Source: a virus
IMG/VR virus record: IMGVR_UViG_3300042549_003384
Coordinates: 1-26,797 of that record
DNA length: 26,797 nucleotides
Direction: 5' to 3' (one strand)
Under the pieces are notes generated by a model, which saw nothing but the letters and a program-made list of their open reading frames with translations, was not told the DNA's origin and searched no databases. Position numbers and translations under genes: made by a program. The stretch's first letter is position 1. The number at the start of each line of letters is the position of its first letter. Shown here in pieces: positions 3,864 through 16,849 of the stretch.

Positions 3864-4685
3864 TTATATTGACCCAAACGGATTTATTTCTGATAGATCC
3901 AGTATCAATACAGAGTTATTAGCAAACTCCTCATTATCAGATAGATCATGTGTAAAGTTTGTAGTTGTGTCAATGACACCTTTTGTCTTATACACGGCAT
4001 GATTTGTGTTACCATAAACGTTGGCATTATTGGCAAAAATACCGTCAACATTATATATGAACATGGTTCCGTTTGACTTGAACCATTCTTTGATTATGCC
4101 TGATGCGGTATTATTTGCCCAAGAACCGTCAGAAGATTGATAGATTGTTTCACCATCCAAATACGATCCTGAACCTGAAGTGTTTAGTGTAATCTTGATA
4201 GTGTATGCGTTTTCTTCTTCAACCTGATCAATTTCTTCAACACCAGTATCAAACTGTTCCTGACTGAAGCGAAAGTCTTCACAACGCATTTCATAAACGA
4301 ATGGATGACGATTGCCCAATGAGAAGAACATAAGTTTCTTTTCAATGAACTTAATCTCAAACATACGGTGTAACAAAGGTACCCAAACAAGATCGCCCTC
4401 TTGTGGACGTTCTCTTAGTGAGGATGGCACCTGTCTGACAAACGAACGGCGTGAGATAACAAAGTTTGATGTATCTCTAATCTCTAGTCCAAACTTGGAA
4501 AAGAAATCACCATCACCTTCAAAACCTTCGGTATTGGCAATGTATGCTTCAATCAAATATGCTTTGTTGAACTTAACTTTGGTTGCCTCACCAAATATCA
4601 TATCCATATCGTCCAAGGATTCTCTTGGAATATAGTAACAGTTATGACCCATTATTTGAATAGATTCAACAATCACATCTTCCAT
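3864..4685 (-). CDS. 14: Neck protein, T4 gp14-like (start uncertain, probably further upstream)
   Basis: gp14 is part of the neck that seals the filled head and receives the tail. Family features are VESIQIMGHNCYYIPRES at residues 7-24, DMIFGEATKVKFNKAY near 28-43, a GFEGDGDFFSKFGLEI stretch near 54-69, and PQEGDLVWVPLLHRMFEI near 94-111. The coordinates use the only ATG (4685), but this start has no Shine-Dalgarno sequence. T4 gp14 has about 40 residues before the matching VAESIQ motif. The same frame stays open upstream to 4778 and encodes a plausible gp14 N-terminus (NGYFNNFPSQNRLGNEHSLM). An ATT at 4749-4751 has AAGGAG 7 bases upstream, giving a 295-residue protein; CTG at 4767-4769 is another option. 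The upstream homing endonuclease gene ends inside this stretch. Confidence 0.9.
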   Translation of the reverse strand: MEDVIVESIQIMGHNCYYIPRESLDDMDMIFGEATKVKFNKAYLIEAYIANTEGFEGDGDFFSKFGLEIRDTSNFVISRRSFVRQVPSSLRERPQEGDLVWVPLLHRMFEIKFIEKKLMFFSLGNRHPFVYEMRCEDFRFSQEQFDTGVEEIDQVEEENAYTIKITLNTSGSGSYLDGETIYQSSDGSWANNTASGIIKEWFKSNGTMFIYNVDGIFANNANVYGNTNHAVYKTKGVIDTTTNFTHDLSDNEEFANNSVLILDLSEINPFGSI

Positions 4686-4752
4686 AAGAGAGTGTTCGTT
4701 ACCTAATCTATTCTGTGAAGGAAAATTATTAAAATACCCGTTGACAGGAATG

Positions 4753-5547
4753 TTAGTTCTCCTTGCCAGTGTTTTTATTCATTGTTCTTCCCCTTATCCA
4801 GTTAGTTCCTGGACATTCAAAACTTTTTTTATTGAATGTTCCGTCTGTCCACCAAAAAGCCTTGGAAAAAAGTTCTATATTTTTAGGTAATCTACCCTTC
4901 AACGTAGCACTGATCTTTTTGCCAACCTCTTTCATTTTTCCTTCAGGATGTTTTTTTCCATAGAAGGGATTTTTTTCTCCTAACATACGTTCTCTTAACT
5001 TTTGTTTAGTTTCTTCGGATAAAGTTTTACCATAGTTAGGATGGTTTTCACCACTATTTATTTCTGATAATAATCTTTTAAACTCTTCGGATCTTTTTTT
5101 GCCTCTATTACCTGCTGCTCTTTTTTCTATATGCTCTTTAGTTTGTGGAGGCAGATTTTTTCTACCAAGAAGATACTTTTTTTTATAAACAGGATCTTGG
5201 TGTAACTTTTTAGAAGCCTCAGATAACTTTTCTCTTATGGTTAATCTATTGTTTTCATCGGCCGACCAATGACCCCATTTATGTTTTCTAAGATTATAAT
5301 ACTTTTTACCAAGTTCTTCTTCCGATATCATTGATAACCATTTATGTTCAGTTTCTAATAGTATATTTCTATCTAAAACCTTTTCAAGTATTTTTCTTTT
5401 AAAATCTTCGGATCTTCTTCTGTAAGCATCTCTCATTCTATTAGAAGAACAAATGTAACCATCATCTTCTGTTCCCCAATGAGAACCTAGATAAAACATT
5501 TTTCTTTTTTTATCAAACCATATATAAATGAATCCATATTTTTCCAT
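4753..5547 (-). CDS. Free-standing GIY-YIG homing endonuclease with NUMOD3 repeats
   Basis: This 264-residue protein is a probable DNA endonuclease that spreads its own gene. GIY-YIG signatures: GFIYIWFDKK at residues 5-14 (FIY replaces GIY), FYLGSHWG at 18-25 (YLG replaces YIG), a basic RMRDAYRRR segment, the likely catalytic Glu in ETEHKW (65-70), and Asn in YYN (83-85). Residues 105-205 carry NUMOD3-like DNA-binding motifs (GKTLSEETKQKLRE; GEKNPFYGKKHPEGKMKE). The C-terminus (FWWTDGTFNKKSFECPGTNW) is typical of phage homing endonucleases. It lies between gp13 and gp14, where T4-like phages normally have no gene. AGGAGG precedes the ATG by 5 bases but is enclosed in a 10-bp hairpin. Its last codons hold the AAGGAG that may serve gp14. 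It is paralogous to the endonuclease gene at 16244-16822. Confidence 0.9.
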   Translation of the reverse strand: MEKYGFIYIWFDKKRKMFYLGSHWGTEDDGYICSSNRMRDAYRRRSEDFKRKILEKVLDRNILLETEHKWLSMISEEELGKKYYNLRKHKWGHWSADENNRLTIREKLSEASKKLHQDPVYKKKYLLGRKNLPPQTKEHIEKRAAGNRGKKRSEEFKRLLSEINSGENHPNYGKTLSEETKQKLRERMLGEKNPFYGKKHPEGKMKEVGKKISATLKGRLPKNIELFSKAFWWTDGTFNKKSFECPGTNWIRGRTMNKNTGKEN

Positions 5548-5570
5548 ATAAACCTCCTGTGGTTTATATG
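5545..5570 (-). promoter_or_regulatory. RBS- and start-codon-sequestering hairpin of the endonuclease gene
   Basis: The leader contains CATATAAACC, a 6-base loop ACAGGA, and GGTTTATATG: a perfect 10-bp stem. The 3' arm includes the GG of the AGGAGG ribosome binding site and ends in the ATG start codon itself, so a transcript that reads through from upstream would hide translation initiation. The CTAAATAC motif at 5570-5577 touches the 5' arm, so a transcript starting there would lack most of that arm. Confidence 0.75.
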
Positions 5571-5577
5571 TATTTAG
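5570..5577 (-). promoter_or_regulatory. Late-type promoter candidate (CTAAATAC) of the endonuclease gene
   Basis: CTAAATAC lies in the 44-base gap between gp13 and the endonuclease gene. The 16-base block CGATTTTACTAAATAC is identical before the second endonuclease gene (16842-16857), which marks it as a conserved cassette. It differs from the T4 late core TATAAATA at the first two positions (CTAAATA). Promoter activity is an inference. Confidence 0.55.
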
Positions 5578-5591
5578 TAAAATCGAGTGTG

Positions 5592-6341
5592 CTACCCCAC
5601 CAAAAATCCCGGAGGTTGCTCGTATGTGCTTCTAATCTCTTGCTCTATTGCAGCAATTTCTGAGGTTGCTTCGTTAAAGATATCAACACCACGCATTGTT
5701 ACACCACCTGGTAGTTGCATCTTATCAAACTTGGACATGTTGGTTCCCCACTGTTTCTTGACATAAGCAGTGGATAACTTCTTAAGCATACGGTCATTCC
5801 AAACCCTAGTGTATGTTGTTGGATCTGTAATGATAATACCTTCTACAACAATATATTCACCTACTTCAATATCATTTTTCCAATCCCAATCGATGTATAG
5901 TTTGTTAGTAATACGATTAAAACGAATTGGTTGTTGACCTGTAAAAATAAGATTAAGTGTAGCAAGATGTTGCATCGTCAGTGAATAATTAACGTATGAA
6001 GTTGATGAAAGATCCCATAGATCGTTAAGTCGCAACTGATATCTTAGGTCAAACATGTTCATGGCAAGATGAGATCCACCAACAGGAAATACACGAATGG
6101 CCCCGATAAGAGAATTACTTACTGTGATATACTCGTTATCGAGGTCAGTTTGTGTTATTTGATGCTTGACATAACTTCTTTCAGTACCGTTGAAATGAAA
6201 CTCATTCCAAAACTCAAAGGCGAGTTCAATTGCATCTTCAACCTGCACATCATCAACATTCACCTGAACAACAGGATAACCTAATTGCCTCAGGCAAAAG
6301 TCTTTTAGTTCTTCTTTATTGGCAGGTTGGGACTGCGACAT
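5592..6341 (-). CDS. 13: Neck protein, T4 gp13-like
   Basis: gp13 works with gp14 at the head-tail joint to stabilise packaged heads. The N-terminus is typical of the family in T4-like phages: KEELKDFCLRQLGYPVVQ at residues 9-26, NVDDVQVEDAIELAFEFWNE at 28-47, and a HFNGTERSYVKHQIT segment. Later motifs are IGAIRVFPVG near 79-88, LNDLWDLSST near 105-114, and WNDRMLKKLSTAYVKKQWG near 181-199. The length of 249 residues is shorter than T4 gp13 (309). AAGGAAG precedes the ATG by about 6 bases and follows the stop of the 62-residue gene, so the two are probably co-translated. The endonuclease gene follows after 44 bases. Confidence 0.9.
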   Translation of the reverse strand: MSQSQPANKEELKDFCLRQLGYPVVQVNVDDVQVEDAIELAFEFWNEFHFNGTERSYVKHQITQTDLDNEYITVSNSLIGAIRVFPVGGSHLAMNMFDLRYQLRLNDLWDLSSTSYVNYSLTMQHLATLNLIFTGQQPIRFNRITNKLYIDWDWKNDIEVGEYIVVEGIIITDPTTYTRVWNDRMLKKLSTAYVKKQWGTNMSKFDKMQLPGGVTMRGVDIFNEATSEIAAIEQEIRSTYEQPPGFLVG

Positions 6342-6579: not shown

Positions 6580-6586
6580 TATTTAG
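6580..6586 (-). promoter_or_regulatory. Late-type promoter candidate (CTAAATA) before the neck gene unit
   Basis: GACTAAATAAC lies in the gap between the giant fibre stop and the 62-residue gene, 41 bases before its ATG. The same CTAAATA core occurs before both endonuclease genes and near 13701-13735, and it is rare elsewhere in the window on this strand. It directly follows the hairpin at 6588-6613. Confidence 0.45.
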
Positions 6587-6613: not shown

Positions 6614-9600
6614 TAGTCGTCAAATTCTTTTCTAAGTGCTTCATGCTTATCATTGAGTTCTTTGACTGCATTGATCAATGGTAGGATGAATGCGTCAATA
6701 CCAACTGCCAGTGTGCCATCGCTTTCTTGGGTAAGACCCACGAACTTTTCAATGTCACAGTCTTCCATAGCCTGCTTGACATTTTGTGCAATGAGACCTT
6801 CTTGAACAGTTTCAGTATCACGATCATTTACTTCATTGTAATAGTTAGTTAGTTCTTTAGGAATCTCATAGTTTGGTTTCCACTGGAACTTTACAGGATT
6901 GATACGCTTGATAAACTCAAGACCAATAGCATTTGGAACAATGTTAGTCTTAAGTCTTTCGTCTGATGCCTGTGTCCATGTTACTGTTGCTGTGGCAAAA
7001 GTTGATGAATAGATTCTATTGGTACCGTTACCGAATGTTACAGTGTTATCAGCCTGACCTGTGGTATTTAAACCAAGAACAATCTGATTGACAGCAGATG
7101 CGGCAGACGCCTGAGCATTATAACCAACAATGGTGTTACCGGTACCAGTTGTGTTTGTTGCACCTGCATTATAACCAATAGCGACGTTATTGATACCTGT
7201 TGTTGTAGCAATAAGTGCTGTTCTACCTACAGCGGTATTGTTAACAGCATATGTATTATTAAACAGTGCTTGATGACCAAATGCAGAGTTACCAACGCCT
7301 GTTGTATTGCTATACAGTGCCTGATAACCAATGGCAGTGTTAATGTCGCCAGTTGTATTCTGACGCATTGCTTGGAAACCGATAGCAGTATTAAACTGAG
7401 TAATGGTGCTGGTTCTTAATGCTTCATAACCGACAGCAACATTATTTTTACCGGTGGTATTACTATACAATGACTGGTAACCAACAGCGACATTAAAGTC
7501 ACCAGTGGTTGTTTGACGTAGAGCTTGATAACCAACAGCAACGTTATATTGTGTAATGGTAGCATTGTTCAATGCTTGGAAACCAAACGCAGTATTGTTA
7601 GCACCTGTAGTGTTAGAATACATTGCCTGATGACCAACAACAGTATTACCACCACCAACAGTGGTCTGACGCATTGCCTGAACACCAATAGAAATATTGT
7701 TAAGTGTGGTGGTTGCTGTAATCATAGATTCAGCACCAATTGCAATGTTATTACCACCAGTTGTATTATTAGCCATACACTGTTGACCAACAGCAACGTT
7801 ATTAACACCTATTGTATTCGAATCAAATGCTTGATAACCAACAGCAACGTTGCCTGAACCTGTTGTATTAGCATACATTGCGTTATAACCAACAGCGGTG
7901 TTAAAGTCACCGGTGGTTGTCTGACGCATTGCCTGAGTACCAACGGACACATTGTAATTAGTATTTGTTGATGTGAGTAGAGATTCAAATCCGATAGCAA
8001 CATTGTTATTACCAACGGTATTACTATACAGTGCACTAAGACCTAGTGATGTATTGTTAGATCCAACGGTGTTACTATACAGTGCACCATGTCCTACTGC
8101 ATTATTGTAAGATCCGGTTGTATTGTTACCAAGAGATTGGCGTCCTACTGCGGTATTATATGTGCCTGTAGTATTACTTACTAGTGAGATAGTACCTATA
8201 GCGGTATTGAAAAAACCAATTGTATTAGATACCAATGCTTGGAAACCAAAAACAGTATTGCCTCCACCGGTGGTATTACTATACAATGACTGATAACCAA
8301 CAGCGGTGTTAAAGTCACCGGTGGTTGTCTGAGACATTGCTTGGAAACCAAGTGCAACATTGTATTGTGTAATGGTGCTGGTTCTTAATGCTTCATAACC
8401 AACAGCAACATTGTTAGCACCAGTGGTGTTAAATTGTAATGCATTAATACCAATAGCAAGATTACCACTACCAATGGTATTGCTCAAAAGCGCACTAGGA
8501 CCAATAGCAATGTTTAGAGATCCCGTGGTGTTTGCTGGCAATGCATTACCGATAGCAATATTATTATTACCAATTGTATTGGAAAATAGTGCTAGATAAC
8601 CAACAGCAACGTTACTTGTACCTGTTGTATTGGTATACAGTGCCTGATAACCAACAGCGGTGTTTTGGTCACCGGTGGTATTGTTACGCATTGCACGGAA
8701 ACCAATAGCAATATTATACAGAGTAGCATTGGCGGTAAAAAGTGATTCATAACCAATAGCAGTATTATTGTTACCACTGATGTTGGTATATAATGCATTA
8801 GGACCAAATGCAACATTGTTGCTACCAATAGTATTATTATAGAGTGCATTAAGACCAACACCGGTATTAGTAATACCGGTTGTGTTAGACAACATTGCTT
8901 GATGTCCAAGAGCAGTATTGTTTTGCCCTGTGGTGTTGGCTTGTAGTGCTTGATGACCCAGAGCGACATTGTATCTACCTTGGGTATTGGAAATTAGAGT
9001 ATGATATCCAATAGCAGTATTGTTAATACCTGTTGTATTATTATATAATGCATTGTGACCAAAAGCAATGTTATATCCACCAGTGGTATTACTATACAAT
9101 GACTGATAACCAACAGCAGTGTTATAGTCGCCAATGGTTGTCGAACGCATAGCACGATAACCAACAGCAGTATTAAAAGTTGCAATTGTGCTACTAGTCA
9201 AAGCATCACGGCCTATGGCAACAATACCAATACCAGTTGTATTGGTATACAATGCATAAGGACCAATTGCAACGTTATTGCCGCCTCCGGTGGCGCTATA
9301 CATTGCCTGTAAACCAATGGCAACATTACTAGCACCAATTGTATTAGAATACAATGTCTGATAACCAACAGCGGTGTTAAAGTCACCGGTGGTTGTCTGA
9401 CGCATTGCCTGAGTACCAATAGCAACATTATAAGCAGTGATGGTAGAACTGTAAAGTGATTCTACACCAACAGCAACATTGTTAACACCTGTTGTATTAT
9501 TGAACAATGAACTGTAACCAACAGCGGTGTTATTTCCACCTACTGTATTGCTATACAATGCACGGAAACCAATAGCAACGTTTTGAAAAGATGCAATACT

Positions 9601-16243: not shown

Positions 16244-16822
16244 TTACTCCGTTGATTTAATCCATCTTAATTTATTTATTCGTTTCATATTTTCACTTCT
16301 GATCCGTCTAACTTCCTCTGTAACACCATTTTTCATAGCAACTTTAACTCGTTTAACGTAATCTTCATCTTGCCACAATTCTAATGATTTTTTTCTTCTT
16401 AGTTCTTTTTGTTCTGGATTCTCAAACTGTTTCTTGTTTGCTTTTCTTATCTTATCTTTAAATTCATCACTTCTTATTTTACCTTGGTTACTTTCTGAAA
16501 TTTTACGTTTAGTTTCTTCGGAATGATTGTAACCTTTAGTAGAAGGTGTGGTTGCTTTTAAAGTTTTATTATAGTACCTTATGTTTACTTGATCAGGATT
16601 TATCATATTAAGCCATCTTTGTTCTTCTTTTATTAATGCTTCTTTGTCATAAACACGGGATATTATACGTCTCTTAAAATCTTTTGGGCGTCTTTTGAAA
16701 GCCTCTCTCATTGAATTTGAGGAACAAACGTAACCATCATCTTCTGTTCCCCAATGTCTTCCAACATAAAATTTTATATTCTTTTTATCAAACCATATAT
16801 AAATGAATCCAAACTTTGTCAT
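16244..16822 (-). CDS. Free-standing GIY-YIG homing endonuclease
   Basis: I chose the ATG at 16822 (192 residues) rather than the upstream ATG at 16879 because GGAG lies 6 bases before it and the protein then begins MTKFGFIYIWFDKK, like its paralogue at 4753-5547. GIY-YIG signatures are FIY, FYVGRHWGTEDDGYVCSS, a basic REAFKRRPKDFKRR segment, the likely catalytic Glu in KEEQRW, and Asn in YYN. A NUMOD3-like segment follows (YNHSEETKRKISESNQGK) and then a Lys/Arg-rich C-terminus. It is shorter than the paralogue and lacks its FWWTDG-type end. It sits between the 77-residue gene and the 422-residue fibre, and its leader has the same CGATTTTACTAAATAC block and an RBS hairpin. Confidence 0.88.
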   Translation of the reverse strand: MTKFGFIYIWFDKKNIKFYVGRHWGTEDDGYVCSSNSMREAFKRRPKDFKRRIISRVYDKEALIKEEQRWLNMINPDQVNIRYYNKTLKATTPSTKGYNHSEETKRKISESNQGKIRSDEFKDKIRKANKKQFENPEQKELRRKKSLELWQDEDYVKRVKVAMKNGVTEEVRRIRSENMKRINKLRWIKSTE

Positions 16823-16824
16823 AT

Positions 16825-16846
16825 AATACTCCTGTTTTGAAGTATT
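16825..16846 (-). promoter_or_regulatory. RBS-sequestering hairpin of the second endonuclease gene
   Basis: AATACTTC, loop AAAACA, and GGAGTATT form an 8-bp stem with one G-U pair; the GGAG is the ribosome binding site for the ATG at 16822. The 5' arm overlaps the CTAAATA promoter candidate at 16843-16849, so a transcript initiated from that motif would lack the arm. Confidence 0.6.
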
Positions 16847-16849
16847 TAG
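16843..16849 (-). promoter_or_regulatory. Late-type promoter candidate (CTAAATA) of the second endonuclease gene
   Basis: It is part of the 16-base block CGATTTTACTAAATAC, identical to that before the other endonuclease gene. It lies in the gap after the 77-residue gene and overlaps the 5' arm of the hairpin. Confidence 0.5.

Follow-up and report, generated by a model that had tools for sequence, protein, structure and literature searches.

The stretch of DNA analysed here (26,797 nt, hereafter the window) comes from an IMG/VR record of 26.8 kb only, and carries a free-standing homing endonuclease gene between the neck protein genes gp13 and gp14. The beginning of this gene raises a question, as its ribosome-binding site (RBS) and start codon lie in a perfect hairpin overlapped at its edge by a late-promoter motif: does this leader control the endonuclease, and in what way could it do so among late virion genes? 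The features concerned are the following.

5592..6341, minus strand: gp13 neck protein (PHROG head-tail adaptor Ad2), the upstream gene and source of read-through RNA
5594-5592, minus strand: TAG, the gp13 stop codon, followed 5' to 3' by CACACTCGATTTTA
5584..5589, minus strand: CACTCG block directly behind the gp13 stop codon, specific to the endonuclease family
5571..5577 (reading 5577-5571), minus strand: CTAAATA late-promoter motif, of the Aeh1 type (PMC1524935)
5545..5570, minus strand: the whole hairpin, a perfect 10-bp stem with a 6-nt loop
5570-5561, minus strand: 5' arm of the hairpin, CATATAAACC
5560-5555, minus strand: loop, ACAGGA
5554-5545, minus strand: 3' arm, GGTTTATATG, including the ATG (5547-5545) and followed by GAA
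5553..5558, minus strand: Shine-Dalgarno (SD) sequence, AGGAGG
4753..5547, minus strand: predicted GIY-YIG homing endonuclease of 264 aa with two NUMOD3 stretches, between gp13 and gp14

NUMOD3 (two stretches, E 6e-20) was the sole Pfam finding in the window endonuclease, and the Pfam GIY-YIG profile reaches 1 of 22 family members. The N-terminal domain of an AlphaFold model has a beta-beta-alpha-beta-alpha order (residues 4-72), and the best structural matches of the model are to the catalytic domain of I-TevI (Z 7.8 over 82 residues, 3.0 A). The family-invariant residues (G5, Y8, Y19, G21, R45, E67, and N85) include the GIY-like and YxG positions and presumably correspond to the catalytic residues of I-TevI. 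On the basis of the model, the gene reads as an intact GIY-YIG homing endonuclease, and gp13/gp14 junctions were found both occupied by the endonuclease and empty.

The sequence-only reading of this DNA had described a perfect 10-bp stem around the SD with the ATG in the stem, which was confirmed on the minus strand (5570-5561 / 5554-5545). Two of its details required adjustment. The SD is enclosed by the stem for four of its nucleotides, which lie in the loop, but the last two belong to the 3' arm itself, and the octamer CTAAATAC, said to abut the 5' arm, is adjacent to it but overlaps it by one base (C). RNA folding placed the stem in both the minimum-energy and the centroid structures of the 221-nt read-through leader, while the z-score of -2.3 for a 91-nt fold was computed on the opposite strand, where the palindrome pairs too. 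An Rfam search and a tRNA scan of the window returned no matches. There are two perfect stems of at least 10 bp with loops of 3–10 nt in the window, compared with 0.28 per dinucleotide shuffle; the stem on its own is therefore just mildly unusual, and the case rests on the relatives of the gene. The other such stem of 10 bp (9224-9248) lies inside a 2000-aa repeat protein. CTAAATAC is without enrichment window-wide (2 seen, 1.4 expected), but each of its copies lies shortly before one of the two homing endonuclease genes. The second of these genes has the following features.

16244..16822, minus strand: 192-aa endonuclease belonging to the same family, flanked by tail-fibre-type genes
16820..16849, minus strand: its leader, CTAAATACTTCAAAACAGGAGTATTATATG, with a stem starting within the promoter motif (AATACT/AGTATT)

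The stem of this second leader is weak and was matched by 15 of 40 shuffles.

Relatives of the window endonuclease are encoded on at least 572 stretches, and the IMG/VR scans yielded 36, 10, and 80 loci (in overlapping sets). The sites at which they occur are gp13/gp14, gp14/gp15, gp18/gp19, gp19/gp20, after gp23, after gp8, gp25/gp6, after uvsY, among tail fibers, and in non-structural regions of phiM12 and phiN3. Relatives in isolated phages were found in the Sinorhizobium phages phiM12, phiM7, phiM19, and phiN3 and in Rhizobium phage RHph_I1_18. These share the protein family and the leader design of the window gene but differ in insertion site (gp25/gp6, gp19/gp20, and non-structural regions), and they are annotated as HNH DNase-like or as putative homing endonuclease, with the leader left without annotation. 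The label "HNH DNase-like protein" is carried by family members whose fold is GIY-YIG (KF381361 66017-65208, KR052481 63666-62857, and MW015081 62536-63246), and a more distant match in S-SRM01 bears the annotation "translation initiation factor 2."

A search for the same leader before homologous endonuclease genes had been suggested with the sequence-only reading, and found NTAAATA or CTATATA 18–48 nt (median 30) ahead of the start codon in 66 of 72 distinct leaders, drawn from relatives in IMG/VR and in Sinorhizobium and Rhizobium phages. The exact motif [CA]TAAATA occurs in 61 of the 72, as against 3% in shuffles. Most of the 56 non-redundant leaders have a stem over the SD or the AUG that starts at or inside the motif, the 5' arm extending into the motif itself in 42 of them. 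Examples of such stems are AATTGTATCT/AGATACAATT (L028), CATTATAAC/GTTATAATG (L038), CATCGTAAC/GTTACGATG (L092), and AAATACTCCCAG/CTGGGAGTATTT (L045). Two geometries can be distinguished, namely class A, with the SD in the 3' arm (38 leaders), and class B, with the AUG in the 3' arm and the SD largely in the loop (15 leaders, including that of the window gene).

The arms of these stems vary together. Binding of each leader's own arms was computed at -10.6 kcal/mol and that of swapped arms at -6.4 kcal/mol, and none of 20,000 permutations equalled the true pairing, a test which ignores kinship among leaders that are related by descent. The permutation result holds for class B alone too. Descent by itself would be insufficient to keep the arms paired, as the arm sequences have changed too much. 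G-U pairs make up 41 of the 520 stem pairs, which points to an RNA structure rather than a DNA palindrome. A stem neither conserved nor covarying in relatives would have spoken against the proposed hairpin; the stem is conserved and its arms covary. Given the motif in 66 of 72 leaders and the covarying arms, the leader design is not due to chance.

The opening cost, defined as the free energy to open the region from the SD through the AUG, was 11.7 kcal/mol for the read-through form of the 56 non-redundant leaders, 3.3 kcal/mol for the predicted short form and 6.3 kcal/mol after shuffling of the leader. For 42 of the 56, at most 2 of 40 shuffles reached the opening cost observed. The controls, 42 non-endonuclease genes with a late motif on the same contigs (a set including L110, really a family member missed by the filter), gave 5.0 kcal/mol for read-through and 3.4 kcal/mol for short transcripts. 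A gain of at least 5 kcal/mol was found for 45 of 56 endonuclease leaders and 5 of 42 controls (p 1e-13). By site, this gain was seen for 16 of 22 leaders located at gp13/gp14 and for 17 of the 20 located at other late structural sites. Promoters were kept in L011 and L031 without a clear RBS-sequestering stem. In L031, located after gp23, a terminator-like stem stands in place of the RBS hairpin and the SD is free. In several of the leaders L031, L042-L045, L048, L050, L108, and L116, a T run follows the stem, which may have a double role as terminator. In the leader of L094, a hairpin (CTCCTGTAGAAA..TTTACAGGAG) occurs twice in tandem with almost unchanged sequence, and there is no clear late motif.

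A -10 element resembling TATAAATA is present in the window as CTAAATA, a late promoter in Aeromonas phage Aeh1 (PMC1524935), and the same motif stands before other late genes. No gp55 gene was found in the window; phiM12 encodes gp55, gp33, and gp45. In T4, the late motif lies at -13 to -6 (PMC1524935), and when this spacing is assumed for the window gene the transcript would start at A5565, removing 5 of the 10 bases of the 5' arm and leaving 5 pairs. The predicted short transcript of the median leader, in comparison, loses all stem pairs. Folding of the read-through and short window leaders, also proposed earlier, showed the former to be costlier to open (11.4 against 5.2 kcal/mol). The claim that a short transcript would lack most of the 5' arm and expose the RBS is accordingly borne out in direction by the calculation, as the arm would be shortened and the computed cost falls, but half of the arm is not most of it and the predicted short leader stays partly folded. 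It can refold with downstream sequence, so that opening it would still take about 5 kcal/mol wherever the transcript starts within 6–12 nt past the motif, while a start just 1–2 nt past it would leave most of the hairpin. The switch of the window gene is predicted to be real but incomplete, like that of segB.

Endonuclease-free gp13/gp14 junctions (n = 54) are tight, with a median gap of 4 nt (47 measurable), and [CA]TAAATA occurs in the 60 nt before gp14 at only one of the 54. As these junctions are tight and 53 of 54 lack the motif, promoter, hairpin, and upstream block must have come with the endonuclease. The last of these is a CACTCG/CGACCG-type block ~8–12 nt upstream of the motif, shortly past the stop codon of the preceding gene; 31 of the 55 endonuclease promoters have it, as against none of the 42 other late promoters. 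An upstream operator resembling the homing site was considered and rejected, as hits of a matrix built from 20 leaders were scattered over 33 endonuclease-free gp13/gp14 junctions.

In T4, the same device postpones translation to the late phase (PMC2988022, PMC3014915). When put through the same calculation as positive controls, the T4 leaders gave read-through and short costs of 13.4/1.4 (I-TevI), 15.4/5.6 (segB), and 16.9/4.0 kcal/mol (e). The window gene shares with I-TevI the GIY-YIG nuclease, a late promoter inside an RBS-sequestering hairpin and the pattern of a read-through leader costlier to open than the short one. However, I-TevI is borne by the td intron in an early/middle gene, whereas the window gene is free-standing in a late operon. 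The stems also differ: the 5' arm of I-TevI and of most relatives includes the promoter, and their 3' arm the SD, but the window gene has its AUG in the arm and most of its SD in the loop. The earlier statement that the window gene follows exactly the logic of I-TevI can therefore be kept for the design, as judged by the same calculation, but not for the detail, the window gene belonging to the minority class with a short leader that is partly folded.

Free-standing endonucleases controlled in this way were already known, namely T4 segB and Aeh1 mobE (PMC2988022, PMC3014915). As described there, both combine an RBS hairpin with a late promoter; mobE is an HNH endonuclease in an nrd gene, whereas the window gene is GIY-YIG and lies among virion genes, and segB lies in the tRNA region. 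T4 e, soc, and 49 likewise have an RBS hairpin in longer transcripts, with late promoters just upstream of the RBS in e, but are resident phage genes rather than mobile ones, and their described purpose, demonstrated in the case of e, is to prevent translation early in infection. The kind of mechanism is known from I-TevI, I-TevII, I-TevIII, segB, Aeh1 mobE, e, soc, and 49. As far as the literature searched shows, what is new is the family-wide cassette, the class B geometry, the endonuclease-specific upstream block and the use in late operons: a family-wide cassette at many sites was not described for segB or mobE in the literature examined, and no paper on the leaders of this endonuclease family was found in the literature searched.

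Four other explanations of the hairpin were weighed. The promoter could mainly serve gp14 and later genes, with the hairpin keeping the endonuclease low and no productive short transcript being made. T4 endonuclease genes can indeed bear promoters for downstream essential genes (PMC2988022), and in the window gene the predicted short leader opens only in part, but endonuclease-free junctions manage without a promoter (motif in 1 of 54), and loss of all stem pairs from the median leader would be pointless if the endonuclease were not to be made, which makes this explanation unlikely. Somewhat less likely again is a DNA operator, the inverted repeat being bound by a protein such as the endonuclease itself. 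I-TevI binds an operator overlapping its own late promoter (PMC2988022), and the block upstream of the promoter is specific to the endonucleases (31 of 55 against 0 of 42). An operator, however, would need no coverage of SD or AUG, one of which is nearly always covered by the paired region; the arms differ widely yet still pair, with G-U among the pairs (41/520), and a promoter-plus-block matrix favored no particular match when run on gp13/gp14 junctions free of the endonuclease. Autorepression by way of the upstream block may nonetheless act in addition to the hairpin.

A role of the stem in terminating or attenuating transcription between gp13 and the endonuclease is highly improbable: the window stem has three G-C pairs and is followed on the coding strand by GAAAAAT instead of a U run, the scan calls it on the opposite strand only, and termination there would also sever gp14 from gp13. 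What speaks for termination is a run of five T between SD and start codon in 8 of 56 leaders and the strong terminator-like stem of L031 with its free RBS. A chance palindrome in AT-rich DNA, as two such stems in the window might suggest, is hardly credible and is refuted by the relatives, as 56 leaders show conservation with covariation that most other late genes lack.

The site is thus read as a late promoter overlapping an RBS hairpin, by which expression of a mobile free-standing GIY-YIG endonuclease would be controlled; the probability of this reading is put at about 0.83. Its computed basis comprises the hairpin and the motif, the fact that both are conserved while sequences change, the family specificity and the absence of promoter and leader at endonuclease-free gp13/gp14 junctions, and from these we infer promoter activity, start site, translational silence, and purpose. 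The interpretation given from the sequence alone is on the whole supported, by the covarying stems in relatives and by the I-TevI and segB leaders. In the proposed mechanism, CTAAATA serves as a late promoter of the T4 type and shares sequence with the 5' arm of a hairpin that would enclose the SD and, in the window, pair the AUG. RNA entering from gp13 would hold the full hairpin, leaving the endonuclease silent while this RNA still yields gp13 and gp14. RNA from the endonuclease's own promoter would have lost half of the 5' arm in the window, and up to the whole of it in most relatives, and would be translatable. As leader and gene move together, the endonuclease would be insulated from whichever operon receives it. 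The earlier suggestion that it is expressed only from its own promoter is consistent with this, and may hold.

The upstream genes of the window endonuclease are late virion genes, so the usual early or middle transcription from upstream does not apply here. The read-through RNA probably also has a late origin.

6580..6586, minus strand: CTAAATA, the likely late promoter of the read-through transcript, upstream of a small ORF (6539-6351) and gp13

With this promoter (6586-6580), the hairpin would not be simply an early/late switch at this site. Nor is it likely to be a holdover from an ancestor in an early region, as the device is kept with covarying arms at late sites. In late operons, where most family members lie, the device should act on dose, setting the amount of endonuclease, and in early or middle regions it would govern timing as well. 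A device known from a few T4-group genes is thereby extended to mobile endonucleases of uncultured phages, a family numbering in the hundreds. Compensatory changes are seen to maintain it even in late operons, where avoidance of early translation cannot be the reason. This raises the question of whether self-limited dosage is what makes mobile endonucleases tolerable to phages.

The downstream gene also differs where the endonuclease is present.

3864..4751, minus strand: gp14 neck protein, homology beginning at ATT (4751-4749)
4764-4759, minus strand: gp14 SD, AAGGAG, inside the 3' end of the endonuclease gene

No in-frame ATG, GTG, or TTG precedes the conserved N-terminus of gp14 in 16 of 37 cases next to an endonuclease, as against 1 of 70 without (p 4e-8), some of the loci counted being close relatives of each other. 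ATT, ATC, or ATA stands exactly at the Met position in 13 of the 16, including the window; non-canonical starts are those of the window (4751-4749, minus strand), L062, L066, L069, L082, L110, L127, L129, L132, L134, L148, L152, and L158. The remaining three and the one endonuclease-free case are apparent single-base frameshifts. A strong gp14 SD from the 3' end of the endonuclease is kept in several loci. Judging from these sequences, it is plausible that the endonuclease target covers the gp14 start codon and so causes the start change, possibly as self-protection. A combined reading would join a self-insulating cassette (acting on dose, not time), a CACTCG-type block as autorepression site and a gp14 change from ATG to ATT/ATC/ATA that shields the carrier's target; taken as a whole this is tentative and rather doubtful. 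If true, self-protection would push a virion gene, gp14, onto a near-cognate start.

Shifts of the gp14 frame by one base, at a T-rich stretch a few codons past the ATG, were seen in L025/L026/L068, L145/L146, and L150 (with endonuclease) and in L171 (without), some of them in more than one contig and so perhaps not assembly errors. L158, with gp14 beginning at ATT, has an apparent endonuclease remnant upstream. Elsewhere in the window, a Hint/intein-like insert of ~160 aa (CFDPEARVLMAD...VVHN then C; 22627-22141, minus strand) lies in a 2122-aa structural protein, with weak Hom_end_hint and intein matches. The 2000-aa protein at 12597-6595 (minus strand) has short NTAVGY-type repeats and a PHROG assignment of virion structural protein/tail spike, and ends in an SDERLKTNI segment like tail-fiber chaperone domains.
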